Positions 2,823 through 7,446 of a stretch of 7,446 nucleotides of DNA are shown here, piece after piece. The stretch comes from an uncultured Fretibacterium sp. (GTDB lineage Bacteria > Synergistota > Synergistia > Synergistales > Aminobacteriaceae): assembly GCA_937892105.1 (NCBI GenBank), contig CALAUZ010000036.1, positions 1 to 7,446 of the forward strand. The letters run 5' to 3'. Position numbers and translations under genes: made by a program. How positions within the stretch are numbered: the stretch's first letter is position 1; each line of letters starts with the position of its first letter. The notes beneath the pieces are model-generated. The model saw only the letters and a program-made list of their open reading frames with translations. It made no database searches and was not told where the DNA came from.

Positions 2823-2853
2823 ACAGCTCTGAGTAATTCGGGGCTGTTTTTTT
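2823..2853 (+). terminator. Intrinsic terminator after the cold-shock-like gene
   Basis: ACAGCTCTGA (2823-2832) pairs with TCGGGGCTGT (2838-2847) in a 10-bp stem with some G-U pairs and a 5-base loop. It is followed by a run of seven T (2847-2853). It ends only 4 bases before the SD of the next plus-strand gene. Confidence 0.85.
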
Positions 2854-2857
2854 GATG

Positions 2858-2865
2858 AAAGGAAG
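2858..2865 (+). promoter_or_regulatory. Ribosome binding site that sets the esterase start at 2873
   Basis: AAAGGAAG has its AAGGA core 9 bases before the ATG at 2873. In-frame starts at 2852 (TTG) and 2855 (ATG) lie upstream of this site and would put extra charged residues before the signal peptide, so they are rejected. Confidence 0.75.
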
Positions 2866-2872
2866 AAACATA

Positions 2873-3463
2873 ATGAAGAAATTTTGCGTAACATTATTAC
2901 TTCTCGCGATGTTTTGCGTTTCAACATCAGCAGAGGAGTTCACAACATGGGATATCGACAGCATGATACGCCCTGAGCTGAAGCAGTATCTTGCAGACAA
3001 GCCAGGACGGATCATAAACCTTGAAACTCTCCCAGCCCTGAGAAAAGCACTGACAATCCAGCCCGAAGCACTCCCCAAAAATGAACGCGTCAATGTCCGC
3101 AAAGACCGTGTCGCTGTTGCAGGACAAAGCGCAGGAGGAGGACTTACGGCGAGGGATTTCAACATTTTTGCGTGGAATTTGTACATTTCTGACGTTAGCG
3201 GTGATGTTCCTGCTTATGCCTCACCGTCAATAGCTGAAGATTTATCGGGGCTTCTTCCAGCATATATCATGGTTGGAACTCTTGATCCCTTCAGAGATGA
3301 GGCCATAACCTACGCTCAAAGGCTAATGCAGGCCGATGTTCCTGTTGAACTTCACGTTATACCAGGAACAACTCACGGCTTCGAGGCCATATTCACTGAC
3401 GCTGAATTTAGCGTTAAGACCGTGAATGAGTATGTGAACGCTCTTTCTGAGGCTATGAGGTAA
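2873..3463 (+). CDS. Exported HSL-type alpha/beta-hydrolase, internally deleted
   Basis: From the ATG at 2873 the product is 196 aa. Residues 1-20 are a signal peptide (MKK, a hydrophobic core, then STSA before EE). The rest matches pieces of the hormone-sensitive-lipase-type esterase family in order. First comes the N-terminal LETLPALRKAL segment (50-60). Then DRVAVAGQSAGGGLTA (78-93) carries nucleophile Ser86. Then AWNLYI (100-105) and VPAYASP lead to GTLDPFRDE (135-143) with acid Asp138, and PGTTHGF (164-170) has catalytic His168. The whole triad is present. The stretch that normally holds the HGGG oxyanion hole is missing before residue 76, and the stretch after the nucleophile elbow is missing near residue 94. 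Family members usually exceed 300 aa. It may be a decaying gene that kept its frame or a divergent small protein; normal activity is doubtful. It is the first gene of an apparent operon with the permease and nuclease. Confidence 0.75.
   Translation: MKKFCVTLLLLAMFCVSTSAEEFTTWDIDSMIRPELKQYLADKPGRIINLETLPALRKALTIQPEALPKNERVNVRKDRVAVAGQSAGGGLTARDFNIFAWNLYISDVSGDVPAYASPSIAEDLSGLLPAYIMVGTLDPFRDEAITYAQRLMQADVPVELHVIPGTTHGFEAIFTDAEFSVKTVNEYVNALSEAMR
3457..3461 (+). promoter_or_regulatory. Ribosome binding site for the TTG-started permease
   Basis: GAGGT overlaps the esterase stop codon (3461-3463) and lies 9 bases before TTG 3471. Its position suggests translational coupling between the two genes. 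Confidence 0.6.
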
Positions 3464-3470
3464 TACGAGT

Positions 3471-4241
3471 TTGGACTGGCAGATTTCACAGCTCTTTATC
3501 ATATGTCCGCTGATATTCATAGGCGGTGTAATTGACGCGATTGGAGGAGGCGGAGGGTTAATCACGCTTCCTGCATTCATGATTTCCGGCTTCCCTGTTC
3601 ACTTTGCTATAGGGACAAACAAAGTCAGTTCTGCAATGGGAACATCAATAGCTTTCTGCAAGTTCATGCGGGACGGCTACATGCCGTTGAAGCTATCAGC
3701 ATTGGGAATAATCTTTGCGCTTCTCGGTTCGTCATTGGGAGCGCGTACAGCATTGCTCATAAGTGATTATGCGTTCAGGATATTAATGCTTGCAATCATT
3801 CCCGTAACAGCGTATTACGTCTTCAAGAGCCAGGATTTACTCAGGGAAGAACAGGGCAATAATGACAGCATAACTTCCCGTACATACATAATCTGCGTAC
3901 TTGTTGCGTTCTGTCTTGGGTTCTACGATGGATTTTACGGGCCAGGCGCGGGGACTTTCATGCTTCTGTTAATGGCAGGGGCGGCACGTCTCAGTGTTCA
4001 AAAGGCAAACGGAGTAACGAAAGCAATAAACTTCGCCACCAACGTAGCAGCTATAGCAGTGTACTTCATGAATGGAAAAGTTATACTTCCTGTAGGGCTT
4101 ACGGCGGGGCTGTTCAGCATTGCGGGCAACTATATTGGCGCAAGGTTCTTCGAGAAGGGCGGGGCAAAAGCTGTAAGGCCGGTTATTCTGATTGTGCTAT
4201 CATTATTCTTTGTTCGTGTAATATATGATTTAATATTCTAG
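3471..4241 (+). CDS. TauE/SafE (TSUP) family membrane permease
   Basis: A 256-aa inner-membrane protein with a TTG start, rich in hydrophobic stretches (about 8-9 likely membrane segments, for example 8-24, 74-92, 100-118, 139-158, 183-200, 205-224 and 236-254). It shows the family's internal duplication. The first half has FIGGVIDAIGGGGGLITLPA (16-35) followed by GTNKVSSAMGT (48-58). The second half has FCLGFYDGFYGPGAGTF (147-163) followed by NGVTKAINFATN (180-191). Members move sulfite, sulfoacetate, sulfolactate or other organosulfur anions, but substrate cannot be read from the sequence and no sulfur gene lies nearby. It starts 7 bases after the esterase stop, and the nuclease SD begins 3 bases after its own stop, so co-transcription is likely. 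The family call is strong; the substrate is unknown. Confidence 0.9.
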   Translation: MDWQISQLFIICPLIFIGGVIDAIGGGGGLITLPAFMISGFPVHFAIGTNKVSSAMGTSIAFCKFMRDGYMPLKLSALGIIFALLGSSLGARTALLISDYAFRILMLAIIPVTAYYVFKSQDLLREEQGNNDSITSRTYIICVLVAFCLGFYDGFYGPGAGTFMLLLMAGAARLSVQKANGVTKAINFATNVAAIAVYFMNGKVILPVGLTAGLFSIAGNYIGARFFEKGGAKAVRPVILIVLSLFFVRVIYDLIF

Positions 4242-4244
4242 GTG

Positions 4245-4250
4245 AAAGGA
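4245..4250 (+). promoter_or_regulatory. Ribosome binding site that sets the nuclease start at 4260
   Basis: AAAGGA is 9 bases before the ATG at 4260. The in-frame GTG at 4242 precedes the site and is rejected; the protein from 4260 begins with a clean signal peptide, MRKLSF. Confidence 0.75.
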
Positions 4251-4259
4251 TTGATATTC

Positions 4260-4901
4260 ATGCGCAAGTTAAGTTTTGTTCTGGCAGCTGTCCTCGTTCT
4301 GGCAATGTCATTGGCGGCATCGGCTCACCCCGGAAAACTCGACAAGAACGGCGGGCATTACGACAAGGAGACAGGGGAGTACCATTACCACAAAGGCCCA
4401 AACGCTCTCGAAAGTCTGGAAATACGCCGCAACACAGTGTACAAGGCGAAAGTTGAGAGGGTTGTTGACGGTGATACGATGATAGTGTCATTCGTATTCG
4501 ATGATGGCAGCAAGTACCTCAAGGAACGCGTGAGATTTCTCGGTGTCGATACCCCCGAAACTGTTCACCCCAACAAGCCGGTACAGTATTACGGGAAAGA
4601 GGCCAGCGATTTCACTAAAGCAAGCCTCACCGACAAGACAGTATGGCTTCAGACTGATGTAGGAGTGAAGGACAGGTACGACAGAATGTTGGCCTATGTG
4701 TGGCTCAAAGAACCTACCTCGAAAGAGCTTGATGATGAGGCTGCAATACGCGCCAACATGTTCAACGCAAGATTATTGCTTGATGGTTACGCACAGTTGA
4801 TGACGGTACAGCCCAATTCACGTTACGCCAATCTGTTTGTACACTTCCAGCGTGAGGCCAGACAGGAGAATAAAGGTCTCTGGGGAAAAGAACCTGACTA
4901 G
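4260..4901 (+). CDS. Exported thermonuclease (SNase family) with YHYH segment
   Basis: The 213-aa product has a signal peptide, MRKLSFVLAAVLVLAMSL, with likely cleavage after ASA (20-22). Residues 23-45 form a His/Gly-rich HPGKLDKNGGHYD then YHYHKG segment, often seen before secreted nuclease domains and possibly metal binding. The staphylococcal-nuclease domain spans about 60-210. By alignment from memory with S. aureus nuclease, the calcium ligands map to Asp70/Asp72 (VDGDT), Asp97 and Thr98, and the catalytic residues to Arg92, Glu100 (RFLGVDTPE) and Arg142 (DRYDRMLAY). All are intact. The end GLWGKEPD resembles the family's NIWSED. It should cut DNA or RNA outside the cytoplasm, for nutrient scavenging or degrading external DNA. 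It is the last gene of the apparent esterase-permease-nuclease operon, with a terminator 11 bases after its stop. Confidence 0.95.
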   Translation: MRKLSFVLAAVLVLAMSLAASAHPGKLDKNGGHYDKETGEYHYHKGPNALESLEIRRNTVYKAKVERVVDGDTMIVSFVFDDGSKYLKERVRFLGVDTPETVHPNKPVQYYGKEASDFTKASLTDKTVWLQTDVGVKDRYDRMLAYVWLKEPTSKELDDEAAIRANMFNARLLLDGYAQLMTVQPNSRYANLFVHFQREARQENKGLWGKEPD

Positions 4902-4912
4902 GAACACTTCGG

Positions 4913-4940
4913 CCGTCCGTGAGAGATTACGGGCGGTTTT
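4913..4940 (+). terminator. Intrinsic terminator of the nuclease operon, overlapping the mpg end
   Basis: CCGTCCGT (4913-4920) pairs with ACGGGCGG (4929-4936) in an 8-bp stem with one G-U pair and an 8-base loop. TTTT, G, TTTT follows. The right arm and T-run lie inside the last codons and stop of the convergent mpg gene, so these bases serve two purposes. It has no T-run on the minus strand. Confidence 0.8.
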
Positions 4941-5526
4941 GTTTTACCTTCGAGACGTAGATATTCCCTTCAGCGTAATAACGCCACAAGTATTCCCTGC
5001 ATTCTTCAGCATAATCTATGTTCACACGCTTCGATACCGCAATGTCATACTTTCTGCCCTCGTCAATGATGTAAAGTTCATCACCGCAAAGGTCAATCCC
5101 ATAATGCCGCAAGTTTATGTCCATTGCCGCACATAATTTTCCAGGCCCGCTGCAAAGGTTTACTCTCTTGTCAGTACTGCGCCTTCTCATCATCAAGTCT
5201 TCACCCTCCAGAGGCTCAAGCGAACGTATCAATACTGCCTCCGGTTTTCCGGGTAAACCCGCCGTAACATTGAAGCAGCAATACATACCGTAAATCAAAT
5301 ACACATAGGCAAACCCGCCGTCATGATACATGATCTCAGTCCTTGAAGTCCTCCTGCCGTTGTAACTGTGTGCTGCTTTGTCTTCCGGCCCGCAATATGC
5401 CTCTGTCTCAATGATGATACCTGACGTTACGCCTTCGTTTGAGGAGTGAACAAGAACCTTCCCGATTAAGTCATGAGCAGCCGGACAAGCATTTCTCTGG
5501 TAAAATTCACGCTGTAACTTCTTCAT
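4927..5526 (-). CDS. mpg: 3-methyladenine DNA glycosylase (AAG/MPG type)
   Basis: This enzyme removes alkylated and deaminated purines (3-methyladenine, 7-methylguanine, hypoxanthine) to start base-excision repair. It is 199 aa, the usual bacterial size. By alignment from memory with human AAG, ETEAY gives catalytic Glu42 (human Glu125) and Tyr44 (Tyr127); AAHS gives His53 (His136); YGMYCCFN gives intercalating Tyr79 (Tyr162) and Asn86 (Asn169); and IRSLEPLEG gives Arg101 (Arg182). LCSGPGKLCAAMDI (124-137) is the conserved C-terminal signature. All key residues are present. It starts at ATG 5526-5524 with no SD upstream but a TACAAT box 8 bases before the ATG, so the message may be leaderless. 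It is convergent with the nuclease operon and divergent from the CsgG-like gene. No sign of Ada-type control is visible. Confidence 0.96.
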   Translation of the reverse strand: MKKLQREFYQRNACPAAHDLIGKVLVHSSNEGVTSGIIIETEAYCGPEDKAAHSYNGRRTSRTEIMYHDGGFAYVYLIYGMYCCFNVTAGLPGKPEAVLIRSLEPLEGEDLMMRRRSTDKRVNLCSGPGKLCAAMDINLRHYGIDLCGDELYIIDEGRKYDIAVSKRVNIDYAEECREYLWRYYAEGNIYVSKVKQNRP

Positions 5527-5607: not shown

Positions 5608-6906
5608 ATGAAGAAACTCGTTTGCGTCTTGGCAGTAATGTTATGCCTTGTTGCGTCTCAGGCAGGAGCGTCAGACAGGATACGTATTGGTGTCTTGAAG
5701 TTCCAGAACAGCTCAGGAGTTGAGCCGTATTATGCCGGTACAATCGGTGATACTTTCGCCCAAATGCTCGGTATATCGGAGAAACTCTCGGTAATGGGGC
5801 CAGACCAGCTCAATCTCATAGCCGCGCAGAACAATGTAGCACTGTCAGGTTATGTTTCCCGCGAGACAGCACAGGAGATAGGGAAGCTCGCAGACTGCCG
5901 TTACGTTGTAGTTGGGACAGTAACCAGCTTCAAGCGCAAAGCAACATCAGGCGGAGTATGGATTGCAGGTTCGCACAAGGAGGAGGCTTCAGCGGAGGCG
6001 GATATACGTGTTTACGACACTGAGACAGGGGACACTGTAATATCGGAATCAGCATCAGGGAAGGCCTCTCAGGGTGGAAGCTATGTAGTGCTTTACGGAA
6101 TATCGAGCGGGCAGTCAGACCTTAGCGGAATGGACTCTGGAGCAATCTCGGAAGTTACATCAAAACTGAGCCTGACAGTACGGGATAAACTTGCAGGAGA
6201 TTCTCCAAAAGTAACTGCGAAGGGAGCGAAGGAAGTAACGCTTGACTTGGGAACATTAGGCGGTGCAAGCAAGGGCAGCCTCTACAGGATTTACGCAGGT
6301 TCAGCGTCAAGGCCTAGCAACTTTGCTGTAGTGAAGGTTACGGACGCGAAGTCAGACTACAGCAAGGCAGAATTAGCAGACGCAAAGACAGCGGGAAGCC
6401 TCTCAATCGTTCAGAAGGGCGACAAGATTTACCCCATCAACGCGGAAGAGTTCAAGGCGATGCAGAAGAAGAAGGGAGCGTTCACGAAGTCCAGACCCAG
6501 AAGCAGTGAGACGGAGAATGTTGATGACCTCCTAAAGCCTTCATCAGAGACATCATTAACGCCCTCAGAGCCAGCCCCCGCAGTGTCAACATCAGGCAAA
6601 AGCTATGAGAACGAGTCAACAGATCCTGCGAAAGTCATTCCAACCTACGGACTTCCTTCAGGCGAGGCTAACACGAGAAGGATTGCCCACACCAACGCTG
6701 CGAAACTCGGTGATAAGAGCAAGAAGGCTTACGATAAGTATGTGGAACTTGCAGGGTCATATGAAAACGATTACCTTGCGGCTTACAGGGCGGGAGTAAT
6801 AGCCAAGAACCTGAAGAAGAAGAAGGACGCGGCGAAATGGCTTGACAAGGCTCTGGAAATCAACCCTGACTATGCGCCTGCACAAGAGGCAAAGGAAGGA
6901 CTGTAG
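5608..6906 (+). CDS. Exported CsgG-like / FlgT-C-like protein with TPR end
   Basis: The 432-aa product has an SD (AAGGGGG, 5590-5596) 11 bases before its ATG. Residues 1-21 are a signal peptide (MKKLVCVLAV ... SQAGA) without a lipobox, so it is probably periplasmic. Residues 24-197 resemble the CsgG/TolB-N-like fold: RIRIGVLKFQNSSG, then IGDTFAQML, DQLNLI, ETAQEIGKLADCRYVVVGTV and a tGDTVIS strand. Residues 200-277 resemble the FlgT C-terminal barrel (VTLDLGTLGGASKGSLYRIY, then VVKVTDA and QKGDKIYPI). Residues 285-345 are a Ser/Pro/Glu-rich linker. Residues 363-430 hold one or two TPR-like helical pairs, ending in AAKWLDKALEINPDYAPAQEA. Likely an envelope assembly or scaffold protein; its partner is unknown. 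Curli secretion proper is unlikely because the lipid-anchor Cys and the csg genes are absent. It appears to be a single-gene unit. Confidence 0.85.
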   Translation: MKKLVCVLAVMLCLVASQAGASDRIRIGVLKFQNSSGVEPYYAGTIGDTFAQMLGISEKLSVMGPDQLNLIAAQNNVALSGYVSRETAQEIGKLADCRYVVVGTVTSFKRKATSGGVWIAGSHKEEASAEADIRVYDTETGDTVISESASGKASQGGSYVVLYGISSGQSDLSGMDSGAISEVTSKLSLTVRDKLAGDSPKVTAKGAKEVTLDLGTLGGASKGSLYRIYAGSASRPSNFAVVKVTDAKSDYSKAELADAKTAGSLSIVQKGDKIYPINAEEFKAMQKKKGAFTKSRPRSSETENVDDLLKPSSETSLTPSEPAPAVSTSGKSYENESTDPAKVIPTYGLPSGEANTRRIAHTNAAKLGDKSKKAYDKYVELAGSYENDYLAAYRAGVIAKNLKKKKDAAKWLDKALEINPDYAPAQEAKEGL

Positions 6907-6931: not shown

Positions 6932-6970
6932 CCCCCGTGTTTCAGCGATGAGATACGGGGGATTTGATTT
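6932..6970 (+). terminator. Hairpin between the convergent CsgG-like gene and hisS
   Basis: CCCCCGTGTTTC (6932-6943) pairs with GAGATACGGGGG (6950-6961) in a 12-bp stem with two G-U pairs and a 6-base loop. ATTTGATTT follows, a broken T-run. It likely ends the plus-strand message 26 bases after the stop. The minus strand has no T-run after the hairpin, so use by hisS is less certain. Confidence 0.7.
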
Positions 6971-7446
6971 ATAGCTTGGTCTTCAGATAACTTACAGCTT
7001 CACTCATAGGAACACAAGCCTGTGAGCCGTCCTGCAAATCTTTCACCGACACAGCGTTATCCGTCATCTCATCAGCACCGATAATGCACGCAAACCTGCA
7101 AGCCCCAGCACTCTTCATTTGAGCCTTGAAGCTCCTTCCCGATGTGTCGCATTCTGACGCGATACCAGCCATTCTCAGCACGTGTGTGAGAACCTGTACT
7201 GTCCCTCTCGAAGCTTCATCGAGCGCAACAGCATACACATCAACGCCCGGCATTTTCCCGAACGAACACCCCTGTTCCTCCATCACGAGAGCAACACGGT
7301 CAAGCCCGCACGCGAACCCTACGCCAGGAATTTTCCCGCCGCCTATTGCACTTGCAAGATTGTCATAGCGTCCTCCTCCTGCAACAGCATTCTGTGCGCC
7401 CAAGTCTCCGGATAATATCTCGTATGCCGTCTTCTGCTTGAAAAAA
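6969..7446 (-). CDS. hisS: Histidyl-tRNA synthetase, C-terminal part, cut at window edge
   Basis: This class II synthetase attaches histidine to tRNA-His. About 158 codons of the C-terminal part are visible, against about 420 in a full protein. In order they show the LGAQNAVAGGGRYDNL signature, motif 3 as PGVGFACGLDRVAL with its usual Glu changed to Asp (a common variant is GLER), and then the alpha/beta anticodon-binding domain from VDVYAVALD to the C-terminal LKTKL. The TTG at 7403 that could look like a start is internal, because the family sequence continues upstream (TAYEILSGD before LGAQN). The last 30 bases (7417-7446) equal an Illumina adapter end plus poly-A. Codons up to about 7430 still fit HisRS, but beyond that the expected Asp-Tyr-Tyr is replaced by Phe-Phe-Lys-Gln. 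Treat 7431-7446 as not genomic. Confidence 0.93.
   Translation of the reverse strand, partial: FFKQKTAYEILSGDLGAQNAVAGGGRYDNLASAIGGGKIPGVGFACGLDRVALVMEEQGCSFGKMPGVDVYAVALDEASRGTVQVLTHVLRMAGIASECDTSGRSFKAQMKSAGACRFACIIGADEMTDNAVSVKDLQDGSQACVPMSEAVSYLKTKL
7417..7446. other. Illumina P7 adapter end plus poly-A (artefact)
   Basis: Bases 7417-7440 begin ATCTCGTATGCC and end TTCTGCTTG. As recalled, all 24 bases equal the reverse complement of the P7 flow-cell primer. They are followed by AAAAAA to the edge, the usual run-off after a read passes the adapter end. The contig therefore ends in library sequence and not in genome. Confidence 0.92.

Follow-up and report, generated by a model that had tools for sequence, protein, structure and literature searches.

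The window, i.e., the whole stretch of 7,446 nucleotides that we analyzed, ends on its right side within a minus-strand gene for histidyl-tRNA synthetase (hisS), which at positions 7417-7446 of 7446 gives way to a synthetic oligonucleotide sequence. Elsewhere it carries ordinary genes at 241-1497, 3471-5526, and 5608-6906, viz., those for argininosuccinate synthase, a TauE/SafE-type permease, an SNase-like nuclease, a methylpurine-DNA glycosylase (minus strand), and a CsgG-like protein with TPR, along with a gene for a 407-aa Glu/Lys/Pro-rich protein with no Pfam match (1591-2814) and one for a short alpha/beta hydrolase (2852-3463; 203 aa). The last of these matches only the final third of Abhydrolase_3 (profile positions 134-208 of 210) and seems to lack the N-terminal half of the domain. 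The SNase homolog is the sole other gene of the window seen near hisS in relatives (1 of 28 loci). The features of the contig end are as follows:

6969..7416, minus strand: genuine 3' part of hisS (C-terminal part of histidyl-tRNA synthetase), truncated by the contig end; from the ORF, Pfam matches, and protein identity
7417..7440, minus strand: complete sequence of the synthetic P7 oligo, running 5' to 3' toward lower coordinates; 24/24 identity
7417..7433, minus strand: 3'-terminal 17 bases of P7, the putative priming site, replacing the K-T-A-Y-E-I codons of hisS; from the hisS genes of relatives
7441..7446, minus strand: T run 5' of P7 (an A run on the plus strand) at the end of the contig; from the sequence, with the run being a probable T spacer

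At the contig edge the minus-strand frame is already open, reading FFKQKTAYEILSGDLGAQN, and it continues into the C-terminal part of HisRS, which is the only part covered by its two Pfam matches, both above cut-off (tRNA-synt_His, 25.5 bits against a cut-off of 25; HGTP_anticodon, 38.5 bits). Its best identity to Synergistaceae hisS is about 78-79% at the protein level, and its best DNA identity to relatives is 79% over 436 of the 448 bases. The gene itself is an ordinary one, cut by the contig end, and there is nothing biologically new about it. Our comparison set comprised 28 hisS loci, of which 22 are from Synergistetes (Synergistia), with 15 of the latter labelled as coming from deer, reindeer, or goats. 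At the point of the join the relatives read GLDYYT-KTAYEI-LSGDLGAQN, their protein there being RLVRGLDYYTKTAYEILSGDLGAQN. The GLDYYT motif precedes the join site in all 28 loci and is lost from the window, its place being taken by P7, bearing out the loss of the family Asp-Tyr-Tyr pointed out in the preliminary description of this DNA. We read this absence as a loss through the artefact and not as a departure from the HisRS family, and the true gene presumably continues with GLDYYT. For the adjoining hexapeptide, KTAYEI is encoded by 17 of the 22 Synergistetes loci, RTAFEI by two, KTAYEV by two, and KTAFEI by one. All 30 family loci of a separate set (L172-L201), some of which stem from the same genomes as the 28-locus set, encode KTAYEI.

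The reverse complement of Illumina P7 occupies positions 7417-7440 without a mismatch (24/24 bases; chance expectation in the window about 5e-11) and is followed by AAAAAA at 7441-7446, the last bases of the contig, just as had been noticed from the letters. The 3' end of the window accordingly reads ...CCGGATAAT (hisS), ATCTCGTATGCCGTCTTCTGCTTG (P7 complement), and AAAAAA (A run). An adapter screen was run on both strands of the window with eight adapter sequences, and P7 was the only one to match, all other comparisons yielding at most nine consecutive matching bases. In this eight-adapter scan no index, TruSeq, Nextera, or P5 sequence was found beside P7, which directly abuts hisS with neither an index nor a read-2 adapter between them. 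The right edge of the contig is thereby confirmed as a sequencing artefact without biological meaning.

The P7 sequence does not sit at an arbitrary point of the gene, for its last 17 bases (AAGACGGCATACGAGAT) are resembled by the KTAYEI codons of the relatives. Across the 22 Synergistia loci this site matches 12-16 of the 17 bases, a score that is partly a consequence of the amino-acid sequence, because no choice of codons for KTAYEI can match fewer than 12 of the 17. It is the best or tied-best site in all 22 loci and the unique best in 21, with only one of 344,650 other positions scoring as high. When the last 14 bases are used instead, the site is the unique best in 16 of the 22 loci and best or tied in 19, and 21 of 344,782 other positions score as high. 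A search of 81 whole genomes of the family allowing one mismatch retrieved 10 sites in nine genomes, every one of them the KTAYEI codons of hisS, and the reversed control pattern retrieved none. The exact native 17-mer was absent from all 81 genomes, the best match being 16/17. The suggestion that a related hisS might hold the site natively is thus borne out for a near-match and not for an identical copy. The native match is that of relatives rather than of the source strain itself. Judged by these sequence comparisons, hisS is the likeliest landing place in the family for the 3' end of P7, and both the 22 loci and the 81-genome scan support the initial proposal that this end had found a matching stretch of hisS to anneal to. 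That proposal had also held that 7417-7430 fits the HisRS family in frame; the fit is real, but the fitting stretch is longer, spanning 17 bases (7417-7433, K-T-A-Y-E-I). It would be in frame because priming fell on the KTAYEI codons. A second P7-hisS join was found neither among 76 HisRS fragments, in which the first 40 residues were checked, nor among the viral contigs.

Comparable joins were recovered from a sample of viral contigs holding six T followed by P7, with at least 123 P7 occurrences in at least 120 contigs. Among the matches listed, 115 of the 123 occurrences have an index and a TruSeq or Nextera adapter within 45 bases, and the remaining eight consist of three with a changed adapter start and five that are index-less. 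The length of the T run, in a search that required at least six T, has its mode at 10 (51 of the 123 occurrences among the matches listed). A pattern designed to skip index read-through (P7, eight bases, then not G) yielded 18 viral contigs, 17 of them index-less with a median T run of 10, and one (L151) an index read-through; L163 has merely 17 bases of inner sequence. A megablast search with T10 + P7 gave no match, with the low-complexity filter probably masking the query. Nine phage records with P7 were found through matches to the joins of L010 or L162; eight show index read-through, some of them with a shortened adapter, and one, Vibrio phage D57 g1, is index-less. In these eight published records (L207-L211, L213-L215) P7 is followed by an index and all or part of an adapter, either internally or terminally, and they thus represent untrimmed read-through. 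Illumina surface oligos carry a ten-T spacer, which the mode and median of the T runs fit. Surface primers built with ten T and a nearly identical P7 sequence are also described in a passage of PMC11123353. The A run at 7441-7446, which the preliminary description had taken for poly-A run-off, is better read as a probable copy of this T spacer.

Clean close relatives were found for four of the 17 index-less viral contigs, namely L037 (= Marfa), L152, L156, and L158, and a fifth join, that of a Vibrio phage group, was compared from phage records. In Klebsiella phage Marfa (MN044033; L037, L206) an index-less T11 + P7 lies at about 99,150-99,200, at a spot that belongs to the portal gene in three relatives, whose native sequence there is CGGCATACGAGAT. 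The portal frame of these relatives meets a stop inside the overlay, and the Marfa record has no portal gene annotated in that stretch. Vibrio phages D57 g1, D194, and D193 (L212, L222, L223) carry an index-less P7 overlay at about 30,016-30,052, adjoining an Erf-like gene, while the clean Vibrio phages 219E41.2, D68, and D279 are without P7 and read GACGGCAT(C/T)CGAGAT; 11 Vibrio records are at least 99.8% identical to D57 g1, with the overlay present in the three examined. Contigs L152, L156, and L158 were compared with the clean L218, L217, and L216, respectively. The native sequences match the last 14 bases of P7 at 13 (Marfa), 13 (Vibrio), 13 (L152), 12 (L156), and 12 (L158) positions, the chance of a match of at least 12/14 being about 3e-6 per join, and the first 10 bases of P7 at only 1, 4, 4, 7, and 2 positions in the same order. 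The L156 relative differs from P7 at the 3'-terminal base too. At the positions of the site where a clean relative differs, the base found in the joined sequence is that of P7, though strain differences could explain some of these cases. Because the joined sequences carry the base of P7 at such differences, 7417-7430 in the window is untrustworthy, and the whole of 7417-7446 is best treated as primer-derived. The earlier recommendation to trim beyond about 7430 should therefore be replaced by trimming from 7417, since primer bases stand in place of native ones in all five joined-versus-clean comparisons.

For L157 and L159 a search with the inner flank found only these contigs themselves; L157 matched phages away from the join, its other matches being taken as P7 hits from their identity bands. 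Among the matches listed for L010 and L162 there was a match at the P7 stretch only, and the matches of L050 lie away from its join. L154, identical in length and 100% matching to Proteus phage Saba (MN062188; 60,056 bases), has an index-less T10 + P7 in the tail region (annotated as distal tail/tape measure). No close clean relative of L154/Saba was found, and a distant one (61% identity), which shares CGAGATCA at the join, was left out of the count. The relative search left out L004, L058, L153, L155, L160, L161, and L163.

The best overall explanation of the contig end, to which we assign a probability of about 0.88, is that P7 misprimed on hisS, more probably while clusters grew on the flow cell than in library PCR. 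The 3' end of the P7 oligo would have paired with the KTAYEI codons of a Synergistaceae hisS and then been extended; reads coming from the left would have passed through hisS into the copied P7 and onward into the surface oligo's T spacer (read as A), where the contig ends. With priming on the flow cell, the misprimed short strands and the full-length strands would share one cluster, in which the short strands may dominate the signal until their template ends, with the full-length strands alone giving signal thereafter. Such a course of events is suggested by Marfa, the Vibrio phages, and L152, the three sites for which a clean relative can be compared and an outer flank can be read. In all three, the T run and P7 replace native bases with the length unchanged, and the native sequence picks up again in register past the T run. 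In a weaker test of the internal joins, the strand chosen for each was the one whose open run is longest, and the open frame continues across eight of 11 (P about 0.009 versus an expectation of one third), three of the 11 being the sites already compared directly. The test fails at L058, L152, and L162, although the direct comparison shows L152 to be in register. The in-register resumption could owe something to consensus building from clipped reads.

The same mispriming might instead have occurred in the enrichment PCR of the library, with the free P7 primer landing on hisS to give an index-less molecule, which formed a cluster and was sequenced on into the surface oligo. The native match at the join and the missing index fit this equally well, a T run is expected whenever a read extends to the far end of that oligo and by itself does not separate flow cell from PCR, and the end of the window as such accommodates both. 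However, a molecule made in this way ends at P7, which makes in-register resumption impossible, and yet this is what is seen at 3/3 readable sister sites. Moreover, demultiplexing would probably discard an index-less molecule, except in a run made without indexes. We accordingly regard the library PCR as unlikely to be the source. Because the sister sites return to native sequence, in register, once the T run is over, our analysis favors the flow cell as the more likely place of the join, contrary to the initial view that it had been built into the library; the window itself ends at the T run, and the flow-cell reading leans on these sister sites.

Three further explanations dispense with mispriming altogether. 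A chance chimera of adapter and hisS, arising by ligation or as an assembly join, has precedent in the adapter chimeras recorded in a passage of PMC3163567, but it should neither single out the most P7-like site of the locus (best or tied in 22/22) nor keep the native frame, and the sister joins too have native matches; we consider it very improbable. Ordinary read-through of a short insert into the adapter is a common source of P7 and a T run at contig ends, accounting for 115 of 123 occurrences among the matches listed. Here, however, the read-2 adapter and index that should precede P7 are both wanting, and the join falls on a native P7-like site. With no index or adapter between hisS and P7, we reject read-through, to which we would grant scarcely any chance. 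Finally, the frame that remains open through the P7 stretch might be taken to mean that the hisS of the organism truly encodes FFKQKTAYEI. Against such a native origin stand the 24-base identity to a synthetic oligo and the loss of GLDYYT, which is kept in 28/28 hisS loci, and on these two grounds it is rejected as having a practically negligible probability.

Beyond this locus, we think it probable that index-less, in-register P7 overlays constitute a recognizable class of cluster-growth error that enters assemblies and published genomes, and that conserved codon blocks, for example the KTAYEI stretch of hisS in Synergistaceae, are predictable hot spots for it. If this is true, then about 34 bases (T10 + P7) overwrite the genome wherever it resembles the last 12-17 bases of P7, leaving the length unchanged, and screens keyed to the index or the read-2 adapter would miss such overlays. 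Index-less P7 contamination can read in frame (FFKQKTAYEI) and replace coding sequence at constant length, and an overlay placed by sequence similarity may turn up in that gene again when related samples are sequenced. The pattern should be useful as a contamination signature.

For the terms searched, and within the portions of the open PMC literature retrieved by them, we found no description of flow-cell P7 mispriming, but several known artefacts are comparable in part. Adapter read-through likewise places P7 and a T run at a contig end, but it has an index and a TruSeq or Nextera adapter before P7, and its position is set by the insert length and not by sequence. In the reverse-transcription mispriming described for HITS-CLIP (PMC4858895), a library primer also anneals inside the sample sequence by complementarity; that case differs in concerning RNA libraries and the reverse-transcription step, and in giving rise to false peaks rather than contig-end joins. 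Highly shared T cell receptor chains (CFFKQKTAYEQYF, with the coding sequence tgttttttcaagcagaagacggcatacgagcagtacttc) were, according to a passage of PMC6162092, removed because the sequencing pipeline had probably produced them as a technical artefact. In these chains a run of six T leads into P7, of which the first 22 bases are present and fused in frame, at TACGAG, with a partner sequence that we take to be a J segment (TRBJ); the FFKQKTAYE peptide that results is also the one in the window. The chains differ in coming from amplicon data and in the absence of the last two bases of P7, and the passage concerned gives no mechanism. The overlays of Marfa and of Vibrio phages D57 g1, D193, and D194 differ from the window in being internal to the genome, with the native sequence resuming in register, whereas the contig of the window stops at the T run; nevertheless, they share with it a T run and a complete index-less P7 set on a native near-match to the 3' end of P7.
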